DNA of 64,000 nucleotides from Solobacterium sp. (GTDB lineage: Bacteria; Bacillota_I; Bacilli_A; Erysipelotrichales; Erysipelotrichaceae): assembly GCA_017512725.1 (NCBI GenBank), contig JAFWEW010000022.1:62001-126000 (forward strand). The letters are read 5' to 3'. The notes under the pieces are model-generated. The model had not been told where the DNA came from, ran no database searches, and worked only from the letters and a program-made list of their open reading frames with translations. Positions within the stretch are counted from its first letter, which is position 1. Each line of letters starts with the position of its first letter. This document shows positions 4,021-16,001 of the stretch, piece after piece. The position numbers and the translations under genes were made by a program.

Positions 4021-4968
4021 TTACTCCAGAACCATTCTTGCACATCCGTAGATGCCGGCATCGTTGCCGAGTGTTGCCAGAACGATCTGTGGTTTGTTCA
4101 TTGAGAGCTGTGTATACTGCTCAAAGTAAACCTTGATCAGGTTGATCAGGTAGGAACCTGCCTTGGATACGCCGCCGCCGATGACAAACGCTTCCGGATC
4201 AACGACATAGCTGATCAGCGCAAGATCCCAGCCGAGATATCTGCAGCAGGTCTCCATCGTATTGATCGCAAGCTTATCCCCTGCCTTTGCGCAGTCACAG
4301 ACATCTTTCGCAGTGATGGCATCGCCGAAGTCACGCATCTTGGAAGGCTCATCCGATGCCTTCAGGTTCCGCAGTGCTTCTCTTGCGATACCGGTTGCGC
4401 TGGCAACCTGTTCCAGACAGCCGCGGCCGCCGCAGTTGCAGAATTCTGTTTCTTCTTCACGGATATGCATGTGGCCGATCTCACCGCCAAGACCATGTGC
4501 ACCGGCAACGATCTTGCCGTCAATGATGATGCCGCCGCCGACACCGGTTCCAAGCGTTACCGCAACGATACTGTTGTGGCCTTTTCCGCCGCCCATCCAC
4601 ATCTCGCCAAGAGCTGCGACATTTGCGTCGTTTCCGACTTTGCACGGAATCTGTCCGCCAAGCAGTGCCGACATCTCACGTGCCGGATAAATATCTCTCC
4701 AGCCGAGGTTGACACAGACGCTTACATAGCCGTTTGGCTCAACCGGTCCCGGAACACCGAGTCCGCATCCCAGAATATCAGTCTTTTTAAGGCCGTGTTC
4801 TTCCAGCTTTTTTAACATTGCTTCAGCAACATCCGGCAGAATATTCTTTCCGGCGCCTTCCTTGCGGGTCGGTACTTCCCATTTGTCGACCAGTTCTCCA
4901 GTCGCTTTAAAAAGTCCGCATTTAACGGTCGTTCCGCCGATGTCAATGCCGATGCAGTAATTACTCAT
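4021..4968 (-). CDS. ROK-family glucokinase
   Basis: 315 residues. Phosphorylates glucose with ATP to glucose-6-phosphate in the cytoplasm. The phosphate-binding N-terminus GIDIGGTTVKCG, the sugar-binding block GNDANVAALGE, the second phosphate loop TLGTGVGGGI and the complete ROK zinc motif (IGHMH, then CNCGGRGCLE) are all present. The C-terminal GGGVSKAG block is also intact. The start ATG has AGGAGG 9 bases upstream; a longer in-frame extension of 11 codons is not needed. The leader carries a perfect inverted repeat that could be an operator. Glucokinase is the simplest reading, though other hexoses remain possible. Confidence 0.9.
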   Translation of the reverse strand: MSNYCIGIDIGGTTVKCGLFKATGELVDKWEVPTRKEGAGKNILPDVAEAMLKKLEEHGLKKTDILGCGLGVPGPVEPNGYVSVCVNLGWRDIYPAREMSALLGGQIPCKVGNDANVAALGEMWMGGGKGHNSIVAVTLGTGVGGGIIIDGKIVAGAHGLGGEIGHMHIREEETEFCNCGGRGCLEQVASATGIAREALRNLKASDEPSKMRDFGDAITAKDVCDCAKAGDKLAINTMETCCRYLGWDLALISYVVDPEAFVIGGGVSKAGSYLINLIKVYFEQYTQLSMNKPQIVLATLGNDAGIYGCARMVLE

Positions 4969-4988
4969 ATTATAAATTCCTCCTGAAT

Positions 4989-5003
4989 ACGTGATATTCA
5001 CGT
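4989..5003. promoter_or_regulatory. Inverted repeat in the ROK kinase leader
   Basis: ACGTGA-TAT-TCACGT, a perfect 6-bp inverted repeat with a 3-base centre. It lies between the predicted transcription start and the Shine-Dalgarno of the ROK gene, a position fitting a repressor operator. Confidence 0.5.
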
Positions 5004-5017
5004 CAAATCCAATATTT

Positions 5018-5047
5018 ATTATAGATTTGTGTATGCGCTTTCTTCAA
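5018..5047 (-). promoter_or_regulatory. Promoter of the ROK kinase
   Basis: On the minus strand TTGAAG, an 18-base spacer and perfect TATAAT. Predicted start near 5011, giving a leader of about 43 nt. Confidence 0.6.
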
Positions 5048-5065
5048 GCATGGATTCGCGTACAA

Positions 5066-5083
5066 TGCTATAATCAAAACGTT
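5066..5083 (+). promoter_or_regulatory. Extended -10 directly before the GT14-like gene
   Basis: TGC TATAAT with the -10 hexamer at 5069-5074 and only 9 bases to the ATG. No Shine-Dalgarno is present, so the mRNA would have a leader of 3 nt or less. Confidence 0.6.
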
Positions 5084-6034
5084 ATGAGAATTGCTTATTT
5101 ACTGTATTCCGGAAGAAAATACTATGATATCGTCCCGGTCTGCCAGATGCTGGCACGTCAGGGAGATCATGTCTTCGTCATGGTCTCGGATGACAAGGCA
5201 AGGGATGAAGTTACCGTTGCGTTTGCGGGAAGCCGCCGTGTTCACATTTCCAGAAAACTTGAGTTTGCGCAGGAAGGAGACATGTCACTGGCGCGGGGAA
5301 CCCTGCTTCAGATCAGAGACGCTCTGGAACTGGATGATGTGCACTTTGATTATTTCGTCAATCTCAGTGAAGGAATGCTGCCGGTGAAATCCCGGGAAGA
5401 GATCGTTTCATTTCTGGAAGCCAATCCTGGAGATTATTACTATGTAGACCGGACAGAGGAAGAAGATCCGAACCTTCGGCCGAAAGCACTGAAGTATTAT
5501 ACCTATACCAATATGCTGGCATTCCCGAAAAACAGCTGGGTGCGCTGGAACACAAAGGTCGCAGCCAATTTTCTGAACCTCATCGGTGTCCGGAGGAAGA
5601 ATGATGACCATATGGTGATTGGCAGTCCCTGGTTCATTCTGACCAATCCGACCGCTTCCGTACTGGCAGAACACTTTGCCTACTGCAGCGATAAGTTCAA
5701 GCTTTCCTGGTACCCGGAAGAAATGGTCTATGCAATGATGATTGAAAAGTTCATGCCGGGGCACGAACATATCAACAAAGATCTCCGCGTCGTCGGGCCG
5801 AATGGATCCTGGGTCGAAAGTCAGGGACCGCGGGAGCTGAAGAGAGAAGTGCTGGAAGCACATCCGGAAGCACTGTACGGCGGTGCATTCTTCGATGATT
5901 TAGATGAAGAACTGTATAAGGAGATGCTTGCGAAATACAACACCGGTTCTGTCCAGGAACAGGAAGACAAGAAAAAAGAACTGAGTGAAGAAGAATTCAA
6001 TCAGTTCGTCGACAAGCTTGGAAACAAGAAGTAA
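5084..6034 (+). CDS. Core-2/I-branching-type (GT14-like) glycosyltransferase
   Basis: 316 residues. Resembles the branching-enzyme family of beta-1,6-GlcNAc and xylosyltransferases: N-terminal MRIAYLLYSG, the conserved block FDYFVNLSEGMLPVKS near residues 88-103, GSPWFILT near 185-192 and a YPEEMVYAMMI acidic block near 210-220. The C-terminus is charged and glutamate/lysine-rich, possibly coiled. There is no membrane segment, so it would act in the cytoplasm on an envelope polysaccharide or glycoprotein precursor; acceptor and donor are unknown. The start chosen is the ATG at 5084, right behind a strong -10; upstream in-frame ATGs lie before that promoter. It ends at its own terminator. Confidence 0.75.
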   Translation: MRIAYLLYSGRKYYDIVPVCQMLARQGDHVFVMVSDDKARDEVTVAFAGSRRVHISRKLEFAQEGDMSLARGTLLQIRDALELDDVHFDYFVNLSEGMLPVKSREEIVSFLEANPGDYYYVDRTEEEDPNLRPKALKYYTYTNMLAFPKNSWVRWNTKVAANFLNLIGVRRKNDDHMVIGSPWFILTNPTASVLAEHFAYCSDKFKLSWYPEEMVYAMMIEKFMPGHEHINKDLRVVGPNGSWVESQGPRELKREVLEAHPEALYGGAFFDDLDEELYKEMLAKYNTGSVQEQEDKKKELSEEEFNQFVDKLGNKK

Positions 6035-6035
6035 G

Positions 6036-6059
6036 GGATGCGCAGTGTGCATCCTTTTT
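6036..6059 (+). terminator. Intrinsic terminator after the GT14-like gene
   Basis: GGATGCGC/GTGCATCC stem with AGT loop, then TTTTTA. It slightly overlaps the end of the convergent small membrane gene. Confidence 0.8.
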
Positions 6060-6345
6060 ATTTGTTTTCATCAAGATAATTAATATTGCTCAGGACATGT
6101 TTCCTGCCGTTTTGATAGGACAGAAAACTGATCAGTGCGAACAGCCCCGATACCACAGCAATCACGATCACAAAGATCCGCCAGCCCTGCGGTGCATCTT
6201 TCAGGAATGTCAGCAGCATTGCCACTGCAACGATGCACACCAGACCGCTGTACTGCACATAACGCTTCACACGCTGCAAAAGAACATTTTCCTTCTGGAT
6301 ATCGAGCTTAATGTCTTCCCGTTCTTTTCTTGATAGTTTTGCCAT
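6058..6345 (-). CDS. Small two-segment membrane protein
   Basis: 95 residues, no family recognised. A basic/acidic helical N-terminus (residues 1-30) precedes two hydrophobic segments at about 33-50 and 58-78, joined by a short loop (KDAPQG), and a polar C-terminal tail. Both ends would be cytoplasmic. A GAGG ribosome site precedes the ATG. It is a single gene downstream of the PTS terminator and is not part of the PTS operon. Function unknown. Confidence 0.6.
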   Translation of the reverse strand: MAKLSRKEREDIKLDIQKENVLLQRVKRYVQYSGLVCIVAVAMLLTFLKDAPQGWRIFVIVIAVVSGLFALISFLSYQNGRKHVLSNINYLDENK

Positions 6346-6437: not shown

Positions 6438-7262
6438 TTATTCGTAAGCCAGTCCCGGATCGAAGACGCCGATGAGAACACCGACGATCGCGATAAGGAG
6501 CATGAGACCCATGACCTTAACAGCGGACATCTTCTTCTTGGACATCAGATACCAGCAAAGCAGTACGAACAGCATTGTCACGATGCCCGGGAAAGCACCA
6601 TCCAGGTTGTTCTGGAGGGAGACTTCACCAAACTTCAGAGAAGTTGTGATGTTGACCCAGGAAGCGGACATCGCACCGACGATGACCTGGCCGAGGAGCA
6701 CTGCGGACTCACGGAGAGCGGTCGCACGGTCACCAACGATGACTTCGACAGCGTTTCCACCGAGTGCATAACCCTTCATGTAAATTGTTCTCTGGAACCA
6801 GATGGAAGTAGCATTCCAAACGATGATGTAGAACAAGATACCAGCAACGGAGCCGCCTTTGGAGAAACCAAGAGCGATACCGAGAAGGATAGGAATGTAA
6901 GTACCAACGATGAGGGAGTCACCGATACCAGCGAGCGGGCCCATGAGACCAGCACGGATACCGTTGATCATTTCATCATCGATGTCTGTTGCGCCGTTAG
7001 CGCGAGCTTCTTCAAGACCAGCTGTGATACCGACAACGATTGAACCAATCTGCGGCTCAGTGTTGAAGAACGGGGAATAAGTAGCGAGCTTTTCCTTCTG
7101 CTCTTCCTTTGTCGGATAGAGTTCCTGAATGATCGGAAGCATGGACCACATGTAACCGAATGTCTGCATGTGTTCCTGTGTGAAGCAGGTAAGGTTGCCA
7201 TAGAACCAGCGCCAGAAGGATCTGTTTAACGTGCGCTTTGTTACTTTCTTTTCTTCAGCCAT
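6438..7262 (-). CDS. PTS mannose-family transporter subunit EIID
   Basis: 274 residues. Membrane subunit that with EIIC forms the sugar channel of a mannose-family phosphotransferase system. Typical EIID features are the N-terminal RSFWRWFYGNLTCFTQEHMQ, the block EELYPTKEEQKEKL, the loop FFNTEPQIGSIVVGITAGLE and GIRAGLMGPLAGIGDSL, followed by the hydrophobic C-terminal half. AGGAGGAT inside the end of EIIC serves as ribosome site, and only 2 bases separate the two genes. Substrates of the family include mannose, glucose, fructose, GlcNAc and sorbose; isomerase genes nearby favour mannose. Confidence 0.95.
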   Translation of the reverse strand: MAEEKKVTKRTLNRSFWRWFYGNLTCFTQEHMQTFGYMWSMLPIIQELYPTKEEQKEKLATYSPFFNTEPQIGSIVVGITAGLEEARANGATDIDDEMINGIRAGLMGPLAGIGDSLIVGTYIPILLGIALGFSKGGSVAGILFYIIVWNATSIWFQRTIYMKGYALGGNAVEVIVGDRATALRESAVLLGQVIVGAMSASWVNITTSLKFGEVSLQNNLDGAFPGIVTMLFVLLCWYLMSKKKMSAVKVMGLMLLIAIVGVLIGVFDPGLAYE

Positions 7263-7264
7263 TG

Positions 7265-8107
7265 TTAAATATCCTCCTCTTCTTCAACAGCAACTGCTCC
7301 GCCCTTCTTAGCCTCCAGAGCATTCATCTTCATCTGGTAGTTAATGAGTGCGAATACAGCAGCAACCGCTGTAGCAGCAATCAGTGTCAGACCCATGGAA
7401 CGAGCCAGTGTGAAACCGAAGATGTAGTAAATCAGATCGGTCGGCTTCGTAACGACGGAGTTGAGCAGGATGCCCATTCCGACTGCAGGCAGCATGGAAC
7501 CAACAGTGAAGAGAGCCTTCATGTACCAGGAATCCATCGGCAGAGCTTCACGGAATGTGTAAACTGCCTGGCTTCCATAGTGGTTGATCAGCATAACCGG
7601 GATGAAGGAGATAACGATATGGGAGATGATCGGCATCCATGTTTCAACAGATGTCAGGATCTTGAAGTTCCCCTTATCGAGTTCAGCCCATCCAATGTGC
7701 TGCCAAATGAGGTTCATAACGGCTGTTCCATAGAACTGGACAGTACCGACTGTACCTACGAGAGCACCCATTGCGCCGGCAATACCTTCTGCTTCAGCAC
7801 TGTCGAGTGCCAGACCCTGGCTCTTCGCAGTAACGTAAGCAAGAGGAATACCAATGTAAGATACGGCGCGGAGGTCAGCAGCAACTGTTCCTCCAGGTGT
7901 AACGAGAGCGATGTAGATAATCTGCATCGGAATCGCGATCTGAATGCAGCCCTTGACGTCGCCCATGATAAGGCCAACGAACAGGGAAGCAATCAGAGGA
8001 CGGTTCAGAGTGTAGTTACCAACTGTTGTACCCAGGCACGCGATGGTGGATGCCGCAAGCATGGACATGACACCGAGCATTGCTGCCTGGAACCAAGAAA
8101 TTGTCAT
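7265..8107 (-). CDS. PTS mannose-family transporter subunit EIIC
   Basis: 280 residues. Polytopic membrane subunit that carries the sugar across the membrane. The N-terminus MTISWFQAAMLGVMSML and the motifs NRPLIASLFVGLIMGDVKG and TPGGTVAADLRAVSYIGIPL are typical of the family. The tail ends in a run of glutamates. An AAAGGGG ribosome site precedes the ATG. A 190-base gap separates it from EIIB, unusually wide for this operon type, and contains two hairpins. Confidence 0.95.
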   Translation of the reverse strand: MTISWFQAAMLGVMSMLAASTIACLGTTVGNYTLNRPLIASLFVGLIMGDVKGCIQIAIPMQIIYIALVTPGGTVAADLRAVSYIGIPLAYVTAKSQGLALDSAEAEGIAGAMGALVGTVGTVQFYGTAVMNLIWQHIGWAELDKGNFKILTSVETWMPIISHIVISFIPVMLINHYGSQAVYTFREALPMDSWYMKALFTVGSMLPAVGMGILLNSVVTKPTDLIYYIFGFTLARSMGLTLIAATAVAAVFALINYQMKMNALEAKKGGAVAVEEEEDI

Positions 8108-8297: not shown

Positions 8298-8792
8298 TCA
8301 GTTGAAACCGAACTGACCGCGGAACTTCGGCCACTCACCGATCGCTGTCTCACGAACGAGCGCGAATGTGATTGTGTAGCCCTTCTTATAAATCTTTTCG
8401 AACGCTTCTGCTTCTTCCTGAACGATCGACTGGTTGTTGCCGAGCTTGACTGCTCCCGGACGGTCGTTGCACGGTCCGACGATGAGTTCTTTGACATCAT
8501 TCGGTACAAAGTTGTTGTCGACCAGAATGGTGCACATGTCGATCGGGTTCTTTGTGATCAGGAAGTATTTCTTCGGACTCTCACGAACCTTCTGAGCATT
8601 CTCGAGGAAGTGCTCCATTGTCCAGATGAATACCTTCTTCTCTGTGGAAGCGACAAAACTCTGCTTCAGAACCGGAGTCGTAGCGGCTTTGTCATTTACC
8701 GCGATGATGCCGTCACAGGGATATTCCTTAGACCAGCGGGTAATAATCTGACCGTGGATGATACGGTCGTCGACACGCATAAATGTGATCAT
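8298..8792 (-). CDS. PTS mannose-family transporter subunit EIIB
   Basis: 164 residues. Cytoplasmic phosphocarrier that accepts phosphate from EIIA and passes it to the incoming sugar. The active-site block RVDDRIIHGQI places the phosphohistidine at residue 13. The remainder (FVPNDVKELIVGP, GYTITFALV) matches the EIIB fold, and the length is normal for a stand-alone domain. AAGGAGG lies 14 bases before the ATG, a little far; the fifth codon is also ATG, so the true start could differ by four residues. Confidence 0.95.
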   Translation of the reverse strand: MITFMRVDDRIIHGQIITRWSKEYPCDGIIAVNDKAATTPVLKQSFVASTEKKVFIWTMEHFLENAQKVRESPKKYFLITKNPIDMCTILVDNNFVPNDVKELIVGPCNDRPGAVKLGNNQSIVQEEAEAFEKIYKKGYTITFALVRETAIGEWPKFRGQFGFN

Positions 8793-8844: not shown

Positions 8845-9276
8845 TCAGATGTCGTCGTCCGAATCTGCTTCTGCAACGGTCTTGAATTCTGCCACTGCAG
8901 TCTGCGCTTCGGAAAGGATCGCATTCTTGAGGGATTCCAGATCATCCATTGCATCCTTCATGATGATAGCGGTCATGGCCATCGGCATGTTCATGCCGGT
9001 CAGAACCAGGGAGCGCTCAAGAAGATTCTTTTCAGAGAGAACCTCAAGCGACTTTGTCATCGGGCTTCCGCCAAGGATGTCGCAAAGAAGAATGACCTGA
9101 TCGTCATCGCCAATCGGCTTTACCAGTTCACGGAAGTTTTCCTGGAACTGATCCGCACTCATGTCAGCGCGCAGATTGGTGCAGAGAACCTCGTCTTTCG
9201 GTCCGGTCATCATGAAGACAGCGGTCCGAAGTCCCGGCGCAAAATCTCCATGACTTACCATTACAACATATTTCAT
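8845..9276 (-). CDS. PTS mannose-family transporter subunit EIIA
   Basis: 143 residues. Cytoplasmic phosphocarrier that takes phosphate from HPr. The N-terminus VVMVSHGDFAPGL carries the phosphohistidine at residue 9, and LCDILGGSPMTKSLEVL is a conserved EIIA block. The start ATG has AAGGAG 5 bases upstream; an in-frame upstream ATG is rejected. It is the first gene of the EIIA-EIIB-EIIC-EIID operon, behind a promoter with a cre-like box. Confidence 0.93.
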   Translation of the reverse strand: MKYVVMVSHGDFAPGLRTAVFMMTGPKDEVLCTNLRADMSADQFQENFRELVKPIGDDDQVILLCDILGGSPMTKSLEVLSEKNLLERSLVLTGMNMPMAMTAIIMKDAMDDLESLKNAILSEAQTAVAEFKTVAEADSDDDI

Positions 9277-9335
9277 TTTCTTCTCCTTCGGAAGCTCGGG
9301 CATCTCTGCCGGGAACGCTTCCATAGCTGTCTACT

Positions 9336-9428: not shown

Positions 9429-9758
9429 TTAAATATACTTCGACAGCAGCCAGAACAGCAGTGCTCCAAGAAGCGGGATCAGAAACAAAAAGGAATAAGA
9501 ACCAAGAACTTTCCGCTCCAGTTTTGCCCATGCCGCCTCAGAAAAATAGTACCGCTCGTCCTCCGTGCGGACTACAACCTTTTCTTCCATCATGTTGGCA
9601 ATCGTATAGGCAAGCACCTGCGTCGTGAGTTTGATATTTTTCAGCTGGTCATATCCGACGGCATGTTCCTCATCCACTGCCCCGACTTTGCGCAGATAGC
9701 GGATGACTGCCTGCCCTGCTGTCTGACGGCCGTTGACACGTTTTGTGCTTTCCGACAT
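9429..9758 (-). CDS. Small protein with winged-helix-like N-terminus and C-terminal membrane anchor
   Basis: 109 residues, no family recognised. Residues 1-80 look like a compact helical/winged-helix fold ending in a beta pair (EKVVVRTEDERYYFSE). Residues 87-106 (SYSFLFLIPLLGALLFWLL) are one hydrophobic segment at the very C-terminus, so the protein is probably tail-anchored with its body in the cytoplasm. Its ATG overlaps the TAA of the preceding gene, so the two are translated together. Function unknown. Confidence 0.65.
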   Translation of the reverse strand: MSESTKRVNGRQTAGQAVIRYLRKVGAVDEEHAVGYDQLKNIKLTTQVLAYTIANMMEEKVVVRTEDERYYFSEAAWAKLERKVLGSYSFLFLIPLLGALLFWLLSKYI

Positions 9759-10321
9759 TATTTCTTTCCCTTCTTTTCCAGTTTCTTTTCTTTCTTTGCC
9801 TGACGGTACTTCTCATATTCATCATGCAGAAGAAGACCCATTTCTCTGGAAACCGTAAAGGTTCCCTGTGTCGTCACAACATCCACCACGCGCTGTACGC
9901 CGCGCTTCTTCGGATCCATGGAGACAACGCTCTTCCACGGGATCACAGCGCTCTCAATTACGATCGCTTCCGGTCCGACCAGTGCCGAACGCTTGACGAT
10001 CGCAACGACCATCTGTCCAAACAGGATCAGAGCCACGAAGAAATACGCCATCCGGAACCACTTGAGCTGTTCCAGCGACGGATCCACATTGATGACGGAA
10101 TAAACACAGAAGATACAGAACGAACCGAACAGTATTGCCCAGCCCCAGAACTGGTTCACATGTCTGGCAGAATCTTTACCGTATTTTTCGTAATACTTCT
10201 TTCTTGCAAGAATGTAGCCTCTGGCAAACTTGAATGCGCTCCAGAGATAGTAAATGGCGTAGATACCAAATCCGACACACAGGATGATAAAAAACGCCTC
10301 TGAATTGATTAGATTGAACAT
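9758..10321 (-). CDS. Membrane protein with PH-like cytoplasmic domain
   Basis: 187 residues. Hydrophobic segments at about 10-32, 58-78 and 88-108 are followed by a beta-rich stretch of about 70 residues (GPEAIVIESAVIPWKSVVSM, TTQGTFTVSREMGLLLHDEY) resembling bacterial PH-type (YdbT/DUF304-like) modules, and a lysine/glutamate tail. A GGGGAG-type site lies about a dozen bases upstream. It forms a two-gene unit with the tail-anchored protein downstream. The 60-base gap to the isomerase gene upstream holds a weak hairpin only. Function unknown. Confidence 0.6.
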   Translation of the reverse strand: MFNLINSEAFFIILCVGFGIYAIYYLWSAFKFARGYILARKKYYEKYGKDSARHVNQFWGWAILFGSFCIFCVYSVINVDPSLEQLKWFRMAYFFVALILFGQMVVAIVKRSALVGPEAIVIESAVIPWKSVVSMDPKKRGVQRVVDVVTTQGTFTVSREMGLLLHDEYEKYRQAKKEKKLEKKGKK

Positions 10322-10381: not shown

Positions 10382-12091
10382 TCATCCGCGCACATATGCA
10401 CGAAGCACTTTGATTTCTTCTCCGGCCGTTTCGATCCGCACTCTGCCAAGAGATGCCGGAAGAATAAACGTCTCCGCATAATGGACCTCAAACGGCTCAA
10501 AACTGCCCTCCGGACTGACGATCATTGCGGCAGTTCCGTCCACCAGATTGCACATACTGACGGTCCCGTTCAGATCAAATTCAACTGCATCGCGGACCGT
10601 GTACCGTCTTGTCTCAATGAATTCCAGTTCATGAAGACCGGTATGTTCTTCCTTCACTCCGTCCGCATCCCGGACGGTTTCAAACCGGTCGACCAGATGG
10701 TCCATGACCCAGTCGGTTGTCCGGTTCCACTGGATGACTTTGCTGCCGTGCTCGATGTTGATCGGCCGCGGCTTTCCGTCAAGACCAAGTCTGCCCCAGT
10801 CCCACAGCTTAAAGGTAAATATATATGGAGTTGCACTGATTTCAAGTACCATGGCATTTCTGCCCGAACAATGGATCGTGCCGGCCGGGATCAGAAAATG
10901 ATCATGTTTTTTGGCCGGAATCTTATTCACGAACTGCTCCGCATCGAAACTGCCGGTTTCCTGCGCTTCCTTCAGAGCACCGATCATATCCTGCGGTTTC
11001 GTTCCGGTCTTCACGCCCAGATAAACACAGGCATCTTCCTTCGCATCCAGAATGTAGTAGCTTTCATCCTGTGTATAGGACATCCCGAAGGAACGTCTGA
11101 TGTAATCCGTCAGCGGATGTACCTGCAGACTCAGATTCTGTCCGTCAATGGTATCCAGGAAGTCAAAGCGGATCGGAAATTCCGCACCGAAGCGGGCATA
11201 GTTCTTTTCCCCCAGAAACGGACGGGGCTGATACAGGGTCAGATCCATTGTCGGAATCTCGACATCTGTACTTCCGAACCGCAGCAGAAGCGAATTCTCT
11301 TCCGGTACACCGTCAAAGGACCATGCGTAGTTTGGCTTATCCGGATCCAGATTGCACTTTTCCTTCATCCACTGGCCGCCCCATACGCCCGGATCAAAAT
11401 ACGGTACGAGCCGGAACGGGCGGTGTGCCGCTTTGCACAGTGCATCCCGGAACGCTTCCCCCGTGATCATCTTCGGATCATTCTGGGCATTGGTATCGAT
11501 CAGATAATCAATCTTATCAAACAGACCCATCTTGATGCGGTCCGCAAAGCGCCATTCCACAAAATAGCCGCGCTTGTATTTCCGGAGAATATCCTCATCA
11601 TAGTTGGAACAGTTATAGTTTCCCATGCCGGCCCGGTAACGCAGCTGGATCTCCCAGCGGGCAAGATCAAAGTAGACGATCAGCCCTTCCTCCAGAAGCA
11701 GCGAAGCCCCAACCCCATAGATGATCACAAGTCCGTCTGCTTCACGGATTCTCGCCTTCGCCGCTGTTACCTGATCCTCGTCCAGAAACGCTTCCGCTCC
11801 GCCGTAATACATCCGGCCGAACACCCGGTCATCCGTAAGCCACGGTTCCATCCGGCGTGTCATTTCTGCTTCGTCCGCATAAAGCTCCAGCATATTGATA
11901 AAGCAGGACGGGTTCAGCTTCATGAGCTGCGGAATAATCTCCCCGTCTTTTACTCCCGGATAAGTCTCAGCAATCAGTACGGGCCTTTCCCCCTTCAGCT
12001 GATCAGCAAGTGTGCTGAGGATTGCTTCATATCCGCGTACCGGCTCTTCGTCACTGACGGTGATATGCGGGAAACGGTCATAATTACTCAT
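10382..12091 (-). CDS. Class I mannose-6-phosphate isomerase-like protein with extra N-terminal domain
   Basis: 569 residues, longer than an ordinary class I PMI (300-400). Residues 1 to about 225 form an extra domain of unknown role with a YGVGASLL block and an aromatic DLARWEIQLRYRAG segment; there is no Walker A motif. Residues from about 230 match the PMI cupin: QVHP at 323-326, E343, FLIPAGTIHCSG with H407, and VLEIS at 415-419, so the metal ligands appear to be kept. The start overlaps the stop of the upstream isomerase fusion by 8 bases (ATGAGTAA). Interconversion of mannose-6-P and fructose-6-P is likely but not certain; another hexose-phosphate is possible. Confidence 0.8.
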   Translation of the reverse strand: MSNYDRFPHITVSDEEPVRGYEAILSTLADQLKGERPVLIAETYPGVKDGEIIPQLMKLNPSCFINMLELYADEAEMTRRMEPWLTDDRVFGRMYYGGAEAFLDEDQVTAAKARIREADGLVIIYGVGASLLLEEGLIVYFDLARWEIQLRYRAGMGNYNCSNYDEDILRKYKRGYFVEWRFADRIKMGLFDKIDYLIDTNAQNDPKMITGEAFRDALCKAAHRPFRLVPYFDPGVWGGQWMKEKCNLDPDKPNYAWSFDGVPEENSLLLRFGSTDVEIPTMDLTLYQPRPFLGEKNYARFGAEFPIRFDFLDTIDGQNLSLQVHPLTDYIRRSFGMSYTQDESYYILDAKEDACVYLGVKTGTKPQDMIGALKEAQETGSFDAEQFVNKIPAKKHDHFLIPAGTIHCSGRNAMVLEISATPYIFTFKLWDWGRLGLDGKPRPINIEHGSKVIQWNRTTDWVMDHLVDRFETVRDADGVKEEHTGLHELEFIETRRYTVRDAVEFDLNGTVSMCNLVDGTAAMIVSPEGSFEPFEVHYAETFILPASLGRVRIETAGEEIKVLRAYVRG

Positions 12092-13580
12092 GTTTTTTTA
12101 CTTTGATTTCCTTTCCTTCCCGAAAAACGCGGAACCCAAATGGCTGAGCCGCTACTGCGTCATAATTGTGTCCTGCAATCGGAGGCCATACCGCACGTAC
12201 TTTCATCGGTATTTCCCCGGTATTGATCAGCCGGTGCGCAAGATTTCCGCGGATATGATGCACGCTTCCCGGGAAAACCTTTTCACACCAGGTAAGCCCG
12301 TTATGGTCCATTAACATGAGCAGACCGGTACCGGCCTGTCCCTCATAGACTTCTTCAACCGTTTCATCCTCATGCCAGTGCCCTTTCGTGAATGCACATT
12401 CCCCATTGACCGTCACCGGATACACTGTTGTGACCCCATAGGACAGCGATCCCGGAACAGAAGCGTCCCCGTTGTCGCACTGCACCTCATACAAAACGGT
12501 TTCCGGATCCACACCGGAAGGATCCAGGAAGTATTCGGCAATCTCCTTCAGATGCTTGGTACCGTATGTAATCTCCGCATCACTGCGCATTACCGAAAAA
12601 TCCTCGGTATACTTCGGTTCTTCAATGCACATTACAGAGCGCGGTTTCGGCGTTCCGACAAGCAGCCGGCAGTCTCCGCTGATCACAAGGTCCCCACAGG
12701 ATGCCGGCAGGAAGACCGATTCGGTATAACCAAGTTCGGTAGTTCCTGCTTCATCACGAATAACGCAGCTGCCGCTGACACAGGACAGTGTACGGAAGGT
12801 CTCCGGATGTGCCTTCAGCGTACAGGAACCGCAGACATCCATCAGATCGACAGAATATTCCGGAAAATCCGCAACCCGTTTTTCCTTTGCGGTATGATCG
12901 ACAGGTGTGTGAATACAGGTCCCTTTCTGGCCAAAGCAAACGACATCGATACTTTTATCAATATGGAGCGGTCTCTCGTTTCCTTCCGCATCTTTGCGGT
13001 GATAGTCATAGAACCGATACGTCGTATTGGAATTGGTGCCGATCTCCAGTGCCAGGATCCCGGCTCCAAGCGCATGCAGGGTCCCGCTCGGCACCAGCAC
13101 AAAGTCTCCTTCCGTTACCGGAATGCGGTAAAGATGATCCTCAATCGTTCCGTCCGCGATCGCAACGCGGATCTCCTGTGCAGACTGGAAATCCGAACCT
13201 GCGACAAGGGATGCCCCCTCATCCGCATCGAGAATGTACCAGGCTTCCGTCTTGCCGTGATCGGCTTCATGCGCCTGCGCATACACCTCTCCTGGATGTA
13301 CCTGTACAGACAGCGAATCCTTCGCATCCAGAAATGCTGCCCGCAACAGATCCTGATCCTGTATCTCCCTGCCAAGAAGCGCATCATGTGCAGTCTCAGC
13401 AAGTTTCGCCAGGGTCTTCCCTGCATATTCTCCTTCGGAAACAACAGACTGTGCATAGGGATGGATACTGATCTCCCAGGCAGTTCCTTCCCCCTCTGCA
13501 GTTCTCCCGCGGATTTTGGAAAGCCGGTTTCCTGCCCAGATCGTTTTGTCATAAATCGGATGTACTTTAATCGGTCTCAT
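12084..13580 (-). CDS. Fusion of mannose-6-phosphate isomerase and cupin-type glucose-6-phosphate isomerase
   Basis: 498 residues. Residues 1 to about 320 are a class I PMI: QVHP at 93-96, E112, VPSGTLHALG with H169, then LEIGTNSNTTYRFYDYHR. Residues about 330 to 498 match the cupin glucose-6-phosphate isomerase otherwise best known from Pyrococcus: GHWH (H401, H403), E410 seven residues on, and AHR with H449; this H-x-H-x6-E-x38-H spacing equals that of the archaeal enzyme as I recall it. The end PPIAGHNYDAV is also typical. One polypeptide could thus take mannose-6-P via fructose-6-P to glucose-6-P. AAGGGGAAGGAA precedes the ATG; it sits between the GntR gene (19 bases) and the PMI-like paralogue (overlap). 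Confidence 0.88.
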   Translation of the reverse strand: MRPIKVHPIYDKTIWAGNRLSKIRGRTAEGEGTAWEISIHPYAQSVVSEGEYAGKTLAKLAETAHDALLGREIQDQDLLRAAFLDAKDSLSVQVHPGEVYAQAHEADHGKTEAWYILDADEGASLVAGSDFQSAQEIRVAIADGTIEDHLYRIPVTEGDFVLVPSGTLHALGAGILALEIGTNSNTTYRFYDYHRKDAEGNERPLHIDKSIDVVCFGQKGTCIHTPVDHTAKEKRVADFPEYSVDLMDVCGSCTLKAHPETFRTLSCVSGSCVIRDEAGTTELGYTESVFLPASCGDLVISGDCRLLVGTPKPRSVMCIEEPKYTEDFSVMRSDAEITYGTKHLKEIAEYFLDPSGVDPETVLYEVQCDNGDASVPGSLSYGVTTVYPVTVNGECAFTKGHWHEDETVEEVYEGQAGTGLLMLMDHNGLTWCEKVFPGSVHHIRGNLAHRLINTGEIPMKVRAVWPPIAGHNYDAVAAQPFGFRVFREGKEIKVKKHE

Positions 13581-13599: not shown

Positions 13600-14316
13600 T
13601 TATTTTCGGTAACGGACGGTCAGTTCATAATCGTCCGCAATATATATGACTAATGAATACTCCACCGGAATTTTCCCGCAGGATCCGGATCGCTGCCTAC
13701 GCATGATCACTTTCGGTTCCTTCAGTTCCAGCAGCTGTTCCTCCTCCTTATCGGACAAAGAAGAAGTAAACCGCTCGGTAATCTCCGTAATCGGATATCC
13801 CGCCTGGCTCAGTGTTTCATACAGAGAGCCGTTAAAATCCATCCGGTCATCAATCCCGAGCGTGGGATTGAGGTAGGACTTATGATTCGATACCGGTTTT
13901 CCTTCCACATACAGACGGCGTACCAGCGTCAGTACCGGCTGGCGTTCCGGGGTGCCGAAGAACGAAGAAGCCGCAGCCGGCGGAATTTCATAAGAAACGG
14001 AAATCACTCTTCTGTCCCTGCGGTCATTGAATTCCCCGATAATCGTTGTCTGCAGAGTGGTCGAAGTATTCCTGCGGCGCGGATTGATGATCGTTCCGCT
14101 GCCTCTGCGGCGGATAATATATCCTTCGTTCATCAGACGTTCCATTGCCTTGCGGATCGTAACTCTTGAAAGCGAAAATTCACTCATGAGTTCCGATTCG
14201 GTTGGAAGATTCATTCCTTCCGGATAGCGGTTCTGTTCGATCCGCTCTCTGAGTATCTCATAGAGCTGGCTCCACAGCGGTTTCTGACCGGTTTTCTTTT
14301 CAAGCATGACTGTCAT
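13600..14316 (-). CDS. GntR-family (HutC/UTRA) transcriptional regulator
   Basis: 238 residues. N-terminal winged helix-turn-helix (residues about 12-75: PLWSQLYEILRERIEQ, LPTESELMSEFSLSRVTIRK, GSGTII) and a C-terminal UTRA ligand domain (RLYVEGKPVSNHKSYL, VIMRRQRSGSC, PVEYSLVIYIADDYEL). UTRA regulators usually sense a sugar phosphate. The start ATG follows GAGGAAT; a 9-codon upstream extension is rejected. It heads the operon with the two isomerase genes, so it most likely controls them. A 14-bp palindrome lies in its upstream region. Confidence 0.9.
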   Translation of the reverse strand: MTVMLEKKTGQKPLWSQLYEILRERIEQNRYPEGMNLPTESELMSEFSLSRVTIRKAMERLMNEGYIIRRRGSGTIINPRRRNTSTTLQTTIIGEFNDRRDRRVISVSYEIPPAAASSFFGTPERQPVLTLVRRLYVEGKPVSNHKSYLNPTLGIDDRMDFNGSLYETLSQAGYPITEITERFTSSLSDKEEEQLLELKEPKVIMRRQRSGSCGKIPVEYSLVIYIADDYELTVRYRK

Positions 14317-14351
14317 CGGATTCCTCACAAAAAGATAATACAATTTATGTT

Positions 14352-14488: not shown

Positions 14489-14501
14489 TCTGGAGGTCTT
14501 T

Positions 14502-16001
14502 ATGAAGAAACTATCTGCCGCAAAACTGGCCGGGACCGTAGTAACCCTGCGGAAAAAACAGGACATGACACAGCTTCAGCTGGCTCAGGCCGCCGGCATG
14601 AACAGGTCGATGCTGAGCAGACTGGAATCCGGAGAATACACCCCTTCAATTGATCAGCTTCAGTCCCTGGCTTCCGTTCTGGGATTTGATCCGACGGATA
14701 TGTTTGAAGAACAGCCGTCAGAGGATCCTGAACCCGTCCCTGATTCCTTCTGCATTGCTGTCGCCGGTACCGGCTATGTCGGTCTTTCCCTGGCGGTGCT
14801 GCTGTCTCAGCACAACCAGGTAACCGCGGTTGATATTCTGGAAGACAAAGTCCATAAACTGAACCAATATATCTCCCCGATTCAGGATGAATATATTGAA
14901 CAGTATCTGAAGGAAGCCCGGGAAGGAACACGGAAGCTGAACCTTTCTGCCACGACGGATGGGGCCGCTGCCTATGCGGATGCGGATTTTGTTATCATAG
15001 CCGCACCGACCAACTATGATCCCACACTGAATTTCTTTGACTGTTCCGCAGTGGAATCCGTAATCGAACTGATTCTTTCCAGTACGGAGAACCGGATGGA
15101 TAAGCCTTTGATTGTTATCAAATCCACGGTGCCGGTCGGATTCACTGCGTCCATGAGGAAACGCTTCCGCTATGAAAAGATCATTTTCTCTCCGGAATTC
15201 CTCAGAGAATCCAAAGCTCTGTATGACAATCTCTATCCTTCCCGCATTATTGTCGGCTGTGATGCACATACCCGGAAAGAGGCCGAATGCTTTGCCGCAC
15301 TGCTGCAGCAGGGGGCATTAAAGAAACCGGTCGAGACGATTCTCATGGGTTCCACCGAGGCAGAAGCGACCAAACTGTTTGTAAATACCTACCTTGCCCT
15401 GCGCGTCTCCTACTTTAACGAACTGGATACGTATGCAGAAATCAAGGGGCTTGATACGGCTTCCATCATCCACGGCGTCTGCCTCGATCCGAGAGTCGGT
15501 GACTACTACAACAACCCCTCGTTCGGCTATGGCGGCTACTGCCTCCCGAAAGATACTAAACAGCTTCTTGCAAACTATCAGGATGTACCGCAGAACCTGA
15601 TCCGTGCAATCGTGGAAAGCAATGCCACACGCAAGGATTTCATAGCGGACCGGGTGCTTCAGAAAGCAGAGTATTACAGCTATACCGACAACCGTTACAG
15701 CAAGACCAAAGAAAAAACCGTCACTGTCGGCATCTACCGCCTGACCATGAAGGCCAACTCCGACAACTTCCGGCAGTCTTCCATTCAGGGTGTCATGAAG
15801 CGGATCAAAGCAAAAGGCGCTTCCATCATTATTTATGAACCGACACTGGAAAACGGAAGCACCTTCTTCGGAAGTGAAGTTGTCAATCATCTGAAACGCT
15901 TCAAAAAGCTTTCCGACTGTATTATTGCCAACCGCTATGATTCTTCGCTGGATGATGTGAAGGACAAGGTTTATACCCGCGATATCTTCCAGAGAGACTG
16001 A
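14502..16001 (+). CDS. UDP-glucose 6-dehydrogenase with N-terminal Cro/C1 HTH domain
   Basis: 499 residues. Residues about 8-65 are a complete XRE-type helix-turn-helix ([38 protein letters not shown]). Residues 82-499 are a full nucleotide-sugar dehydrogenase: NAD-binding GTGYVGLS at 89-96, STVPVGFT near 208-215, FSPEFLRES near 229-237, and [10 protein letters not shown] with catalytic Cys347 and Lys350. The enzyme part would oxidise UDP-glucose to UDP-glucuronate; ManNAc is a less likely substrate. Domain order HTH-dehydrogenase suggests a metabolic enzyme that also binds DNA, with the inverted repeat before its start as a natural target. GGAGGTC precedes the ATG. Confidence 0.9.

Follow-up and report, generated by a model that had tools for sequence, protein, structure and literature searches.

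The window, a 64,000-nucleotide stretch from Solobacterium sp., encodes a 498-aa protein (12084..13580, minus strand) in which a short linker joins a type-I phosphomannose isomerase (PMI; residues 1-313) to a cupin-type glucose-6-phosphate isomerase (GPI; PF06560; approximately residues 333-498). The architecture was established by Pfam, PDB sequence search, an AlphaFold2 model, and seven orthologues. We consider it probable that this fusion of single origin carries two active sites that would converge mannose 6-phosphate (M6P) and glucose 6-phosphate (G6P) on fructose 6-phosphate (F6P) within a PTS operon. The reading frame opens with an ATG preceded by a purine-rich ribosome-binding site. 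The open-access literature searched yielded no published account of the fusion, and no plasmid record covered 80% of the protein.

A sequence-only reading of this DNA had placed two isomerase families in a single chain with intact metal ligands. Pfam and PDB sequence matches indeed cover both halves, both of which score above the Pfam cut-offs, and alignments across all seven fusions bear out the ligands. The PMI half (12642..13580, minus strand) matches PMI_typeI_cat at residues 31-133 (5e-7; 30.4 bits against a cut-off of 22) and MPI_cupin_dom at residues 242-308 (2e-8; 34.5 bits against 27). B. subtilis ManA (1qwr) aligns with residues 3-308 in the PDB sequence search (E 1.8e-50), and Foldseek superposes it on the fusion model with a TM-score of 0.87 on the target. 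The Zn ligands and catalytic Lys and Arg (Q93, H95, K110, E112, H169, and R189) are present in 7/7 fusions. The half scores 110.2 bits on the NCBIfam equivalog TIGR00218, just short of its cut-off of 116.2; we therefore do not claim equivalog status. Its nearest unfused relative is a PMI of Olsenella phocaeensis (61%). Judging from these matches and residues, isomerization between M6P and F6P is the predicted activity.

The cupin half (residues 333-498; 12087..12584, minus strand) matches PF06560 at residues 374-479 (2.4e-11; 43.6 bits against a cut-off of 20.7). Cupin PGIs from Pyrococcus and Thermococcus align with residues 342-495 (E about 1e-18 in the PDB sequence search), and the P. furiosus (Pfu) and T. 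litoralis (Tli) enzymes match the fusion model in Foldseek (TM-score 0.78-0.83 on the target, E about 1e-16). H401, H403, E410, and H449 correspond to Pfu H88, H90, E97, and H136 with identical spacing, just as had been proposed, and the equivalents of Pfu Y52, T71, T85, G87, H88, H90, E97, Y99, H136, H158, and Y160 are kept in 7/7 fusions. The half had also been called archaeal-type. This description holds for the family but not for the origin: in the tree, the half clusters with free-standing bacterial GPI genes of the same genus (GPI-2) and not with archaeal sequences, so that lateral acquisition of an archaeal GPI was rejected for this protein.

One active-site position departs from the archaeal enzyme. 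Tyr152 and His158 of Pfu GPI participate in proton exchange (PMC6627849); His158 is retained, and Tyr152 is replaced by Trp in 7/7 fusions and in nearly all GPI-2 proteins of Erysipelotrichales. Substitution at this proton-relay position counts against assigning the cupin half as a GPI. As a signature of the whole clade, it would fit a half that acts on another hexose 6-phosphate (e.g., tagatose/galactose 6-phosphate or allose/allulose 6-phosphate), in which case the fusion would serve a different PTS sugar. We regard this alternative as rather unlikely: all remaining active-site positions compared match those of Pfu GPI, a review (PMC12965863) describes cupin PGIs as G6P/F6P-specific, and the other half, clearly a PMI, would yield F6P. 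G6P/F6P isomerization thus remains the predicted activity of the cupin half.

The AlphaFold2 model, built from an alignment of 29 sequences, has a mean pLDDT of 91 and a pTM of 0.66, and its pLDDT falls below 50 at residues 316-319 and 327-332. High local confidence together with the lower pTM suggests that each domain is well folded and that their relative orientation is not fixed. The low-confidence residues lie within the junction and linker (residues 314-332; 12585..12641, minus strand). Here the closest unfused PMI ends in ...GDCRLLVGIPHRR, and the fusions read ...GDCRLLVGTPKPRSVM. Standalone GPI-2 proteins mostly begin with M(K/E)(I/V).(E/N)P or something near to it, and the motif M.(I/V).EP starts exactly at residue 317 in 7/7 fusions. 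The join therefore sits at the former stop and start. By alignment, the Met317 codon (12630..12632, minus strand) matches the standalone GPI-2 start. Its use as an internal translation start is unsupported, as pairing with the anti-Shine-Dalgarno sequence is weak or nil (duplex energies of 0.7 to -3.2 kcal/mol among the seven fusions vs -7.1 at the gene's own start).

The fusion lies in a putative operon on the minus strand with gaps of at most 190 bp. The first gene, 19 bp ahead of the fusion, encodes a GntR/UTRA regulator (13600..14343; PF00392, PF07702). The fusion is followed, with an 8-bp overlap, by a 569-aa PMI-like paralogue (PMI569; 10382..12091), and then by genes for conserved proteins of 187 aa (9758..10321; probably membrane-bound, no Pfam match) and 109 aa (9429..9758), both recognized by synteny. 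Next come the mannose-family PTS components IIA (8845..9324, start possibly about 48 bp downstream; PF03610, 7e-21), IIB (8298..8792; PF03830, 2e-33), IIC (7265..8107; PF03609, 9e-50), and IID (6438..7262; PF03613, 5e-87), and finally a syntenic 95-aa protein that is probably membrane-bound (6058..6345). The mannose-family PTS noted earlier nearby is thus a complete set within the same putative operon. This gene order is conserved in L037, L038, and L179, as well as in L176 and L177 up to the contig limits. The GntR gene adjoins the fusion in L037, L038, L178, and L179; it was not found beside it in L176 and L177. Outside the operon, a Core-2/I-branching glycosyltransferase-like gene (PF02485; 4991-6034, plus strand) is transcribed toward it, and several relatives, with or without the fusion, have similar genes next to the PTS locus (Pfam-confirmed in L043). 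On its other side, a single ORF (14502-16001, plus strand) combines a Cro/C1-type helix-turn-helix domain with a UDP-glucose/GDP-mannose dehydrogenase.

PMI569 aligns with 1qwr at residues 223-548 (E 9e-14); its N-terminal domain of about 220 aa gave no Pfam match and no identification in a structure search. In alignments, the lysine of its GKTE motif is changed to Gln and the arginine of its TYR motif to Lys, both of which are invariant in 18 homologues. Because the catalytic Lys and Arg are kept in the fusion and replaced in PMI569, the operon's genuine M6P isomerase is more likely to be the fusion than PMI569. A point against the proposed role in mannose and glucose use is that the best models for the IIA and IIC components of the PTS are galactosamine types, although all score below cut-off; this result would be in line with a different hexose 6-phosphate as substrate of the cupin half.

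In L043, L044, L045, L048, and a Longicatena contig (L042/L168), unfused PMI and GPI-2 share one mannose-family PTS locus. In L043, L045, L048, and the Longicatena contig, PMI, IIABCD, GPI-2, and PMI569 are separate genes arranged in two blocks of the locus, and PMI569 directly follows GPI-2 in most unfused loci. The presence of the unfused parts in one locus constitutes gene-fusion (Rosetta-stone) evidence for their joint function. Genes for 3-hexulose-6-phosphate synthase and 6-phospho-3-hexuloisomerase share loci with PMI, the PTS, and GPI-2 in L043 (1135-2330; NCBIfam-confirmed), L044 (1282-2485), and L048 (15759-16909).

Many Erysipelotrichales loci also carry a second cupin GPI paralogue beside GPI-2, GPI-1 (about 258 aa; e.g., L168:8193-8969, L164:8397-9173, and L043:13461-14243). 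GPI-1, GPI-2, and PMI occur as three separate tandem genes in L169 (8822-11108) and L170 (8671-10956), downstream of what appears, by sequence only, to be a 2-oxoacid oxidoreductase pair. Having both GPI-1 and GPI-2 in many unfused loci seems to exceed the need of plain G6P isomerization, and this tandem is a further point in favor of another substrate. GPI-2 is accompanied by a GH1 gene in four Erysipelotrichales loci, at least three of which have a cellobiose/lactose-type PTS IIC. G6P would be the natural product expected at such loci; the GH1 protein of L164, with its best matches to 6-phospho-beta-galactosidase models (below cut-off), would point instead to a different sugar phosphate. A cupin half that has Trp for Tyr152 and GPI-1/GPI-2 ancestry and isomerizes a hexose 6-phosphate other than G6P, the altered PMI569, and the mannose-family PTS might together form an undescribed sugar catabolic route of Erysipelotrichales, a scenario that we likewise hold to be unlikely. 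In L167, two copies of a 472-aa gene, probably GH1, with identical first 40 residues (4513-5931 and 14501-15919) flank a GPI/PMI569 locus, and the intervening IIC and GntR frames appear broken.

Full-length fusions were found in seven distinct genomes of a single genus of Erysipelotrichaceae from gut and rumen (the window genome, G007, G022, G028, G032, G049, and G496), including Solobacterium sp. records from roe deer (L038) and dairy cattle (L037). Seven orthologues with 60-98% identity exclude an assembly artefact or chance. The fusion was unseen in other sampled genomes of the phylum (392), class (395, full-length query), and order (295), and in 296 Actinomycetota; as these sets are samples, they show that the fusion is rare, not that it is absent elsewhere. 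A 510-aa PF06560 frame in G785 (Actinomycetota) was rejected as a fusion, since it has no PMI half and resembles an extended high-GC frame. No PF06560 gene other than the fusion was found in any of the seven genomes that carry it. GPI-1 was missing from all seven, as judged on drafts (mostly MAGs) of 78-100% completeness.

The fusions are monophyletic in both the PMI tree (support 99/97) and the GPI tree (100/100), indicating a single origin. In both halves, dN was well under dS (0.01/0.23 in the closest pair and 0.12/2.01 in the next, with dS saturated for most pairs), and dN was similar between the halves. Purifying selection thus acts on both. One half might in principle be a degenerate passenger with a structural or sensory role, leaving the other alone as a catalyst, given that fused paralogous domains can decay and that the neighboring PMI569 has altered key residues. 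We find this very improbable, because all seven genomes retain every ligand of both halves, and dN is similar in the two.

Taken together, we favor a scheme in which the PMI and GPI-2 genes of one sugar-PTS locus would have lost the intervening stop and start once, giving two independent metal-dependent cupin active sites, PMI (M6P to and from F6P) and GPI (G6P to and from F6P), with a short flexible linker between them. The GntR-controlled operon would import mannose and glucose through its mannose-family PTS, yielding M6P and G6P, both of which may be converted to F6P at the fused protein and passed to glycolysis. Active handover of F6P from one half to the other is not part of this scheme. 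Because both isomerizations are reversible, M6P could also proceed through F6P to G6P. This relay had been put forward in the sequence-only reading, but it is one of two possible flows and is not required, given that the genome encodes its own SIS-type PGI (605 bits on NF010697; a weak PF00342 match of 80 bits) and a second ManA. The PGI rules out the fusion as the cell's sole PGI, and the two existing enzymes count against the proposed role of the fusion as well.

With a relay, the G6P made might feed glycogen, nucleotide sugars, or the pentose pathway, and F6P might be channelled. In its favor, the PMI half makes the substrate of the GPI half in the same chain, and a PF02485 (Branch) glycosyltransferase-like gene adjoins the PTS locus in several genomes. 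The probability of the relay appears low to us, since F6P is equally the entry point of glycolysis, a pTM of 0.66 with a pLDDT of 91 gives no hint of a fixed two-site arrangement, and a separate PGI is present. Glycolysis draws on F6P, and with the SIS-type PGI and another ManA in the genome, convergence on F6P is the simpler reading and the one that we prefer.

The fusion offers a clean example of operon neighbors that became a two-enzyme protein in which the former start codon is still recognizable. In Firmicutes of gut and rumen, it links a little-studied clade of bacterial cupin GPIs to catabolism through mannose-family PTS, and it makes a natural two-step isomerase available for tests of bifunctionality and, less likely, channelling.

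Among known systems, the fusion aligns with B. subtilis ManA (1qwr; TIGR00218) over the whole length of residues 3-308 and shares its fold, ligands, and catalytic Lys and Arg, except that the Gln ligand of the fusion is aligned with a Lys in 1qwr; unlike ManA, it bears an additional C-terminal GPI domain. With the cupin PGIs of P. furiosus and T. litoralis (PF06560; 1x82, 1j3p), it has in common the fold and the four ligands with their spacing, along with Y52, T71, T85, G87, Y99, H158, and Y160 of the P. furiosus enzyme, but it differs in having a PMI in front, Trp in place of Tyr152, and membership of an Erysipelotrichales clade. The unfused Erysipelotrichaceae loci (L043, L045, L048, and L042/L168) contain orthologous parts in the same locus, as separate genes and often with GPI-1, which occurs in none of the fusion genomes. 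The archaeal bifunctional PGI/PMI (TIGR02128) likewise handles G6P, M6P, and F6P. By contrast, it does so at one metal-free SIS-fold site of relaxed specificity, whereas the fusion would use two metal-dependent cupin sites per chain.
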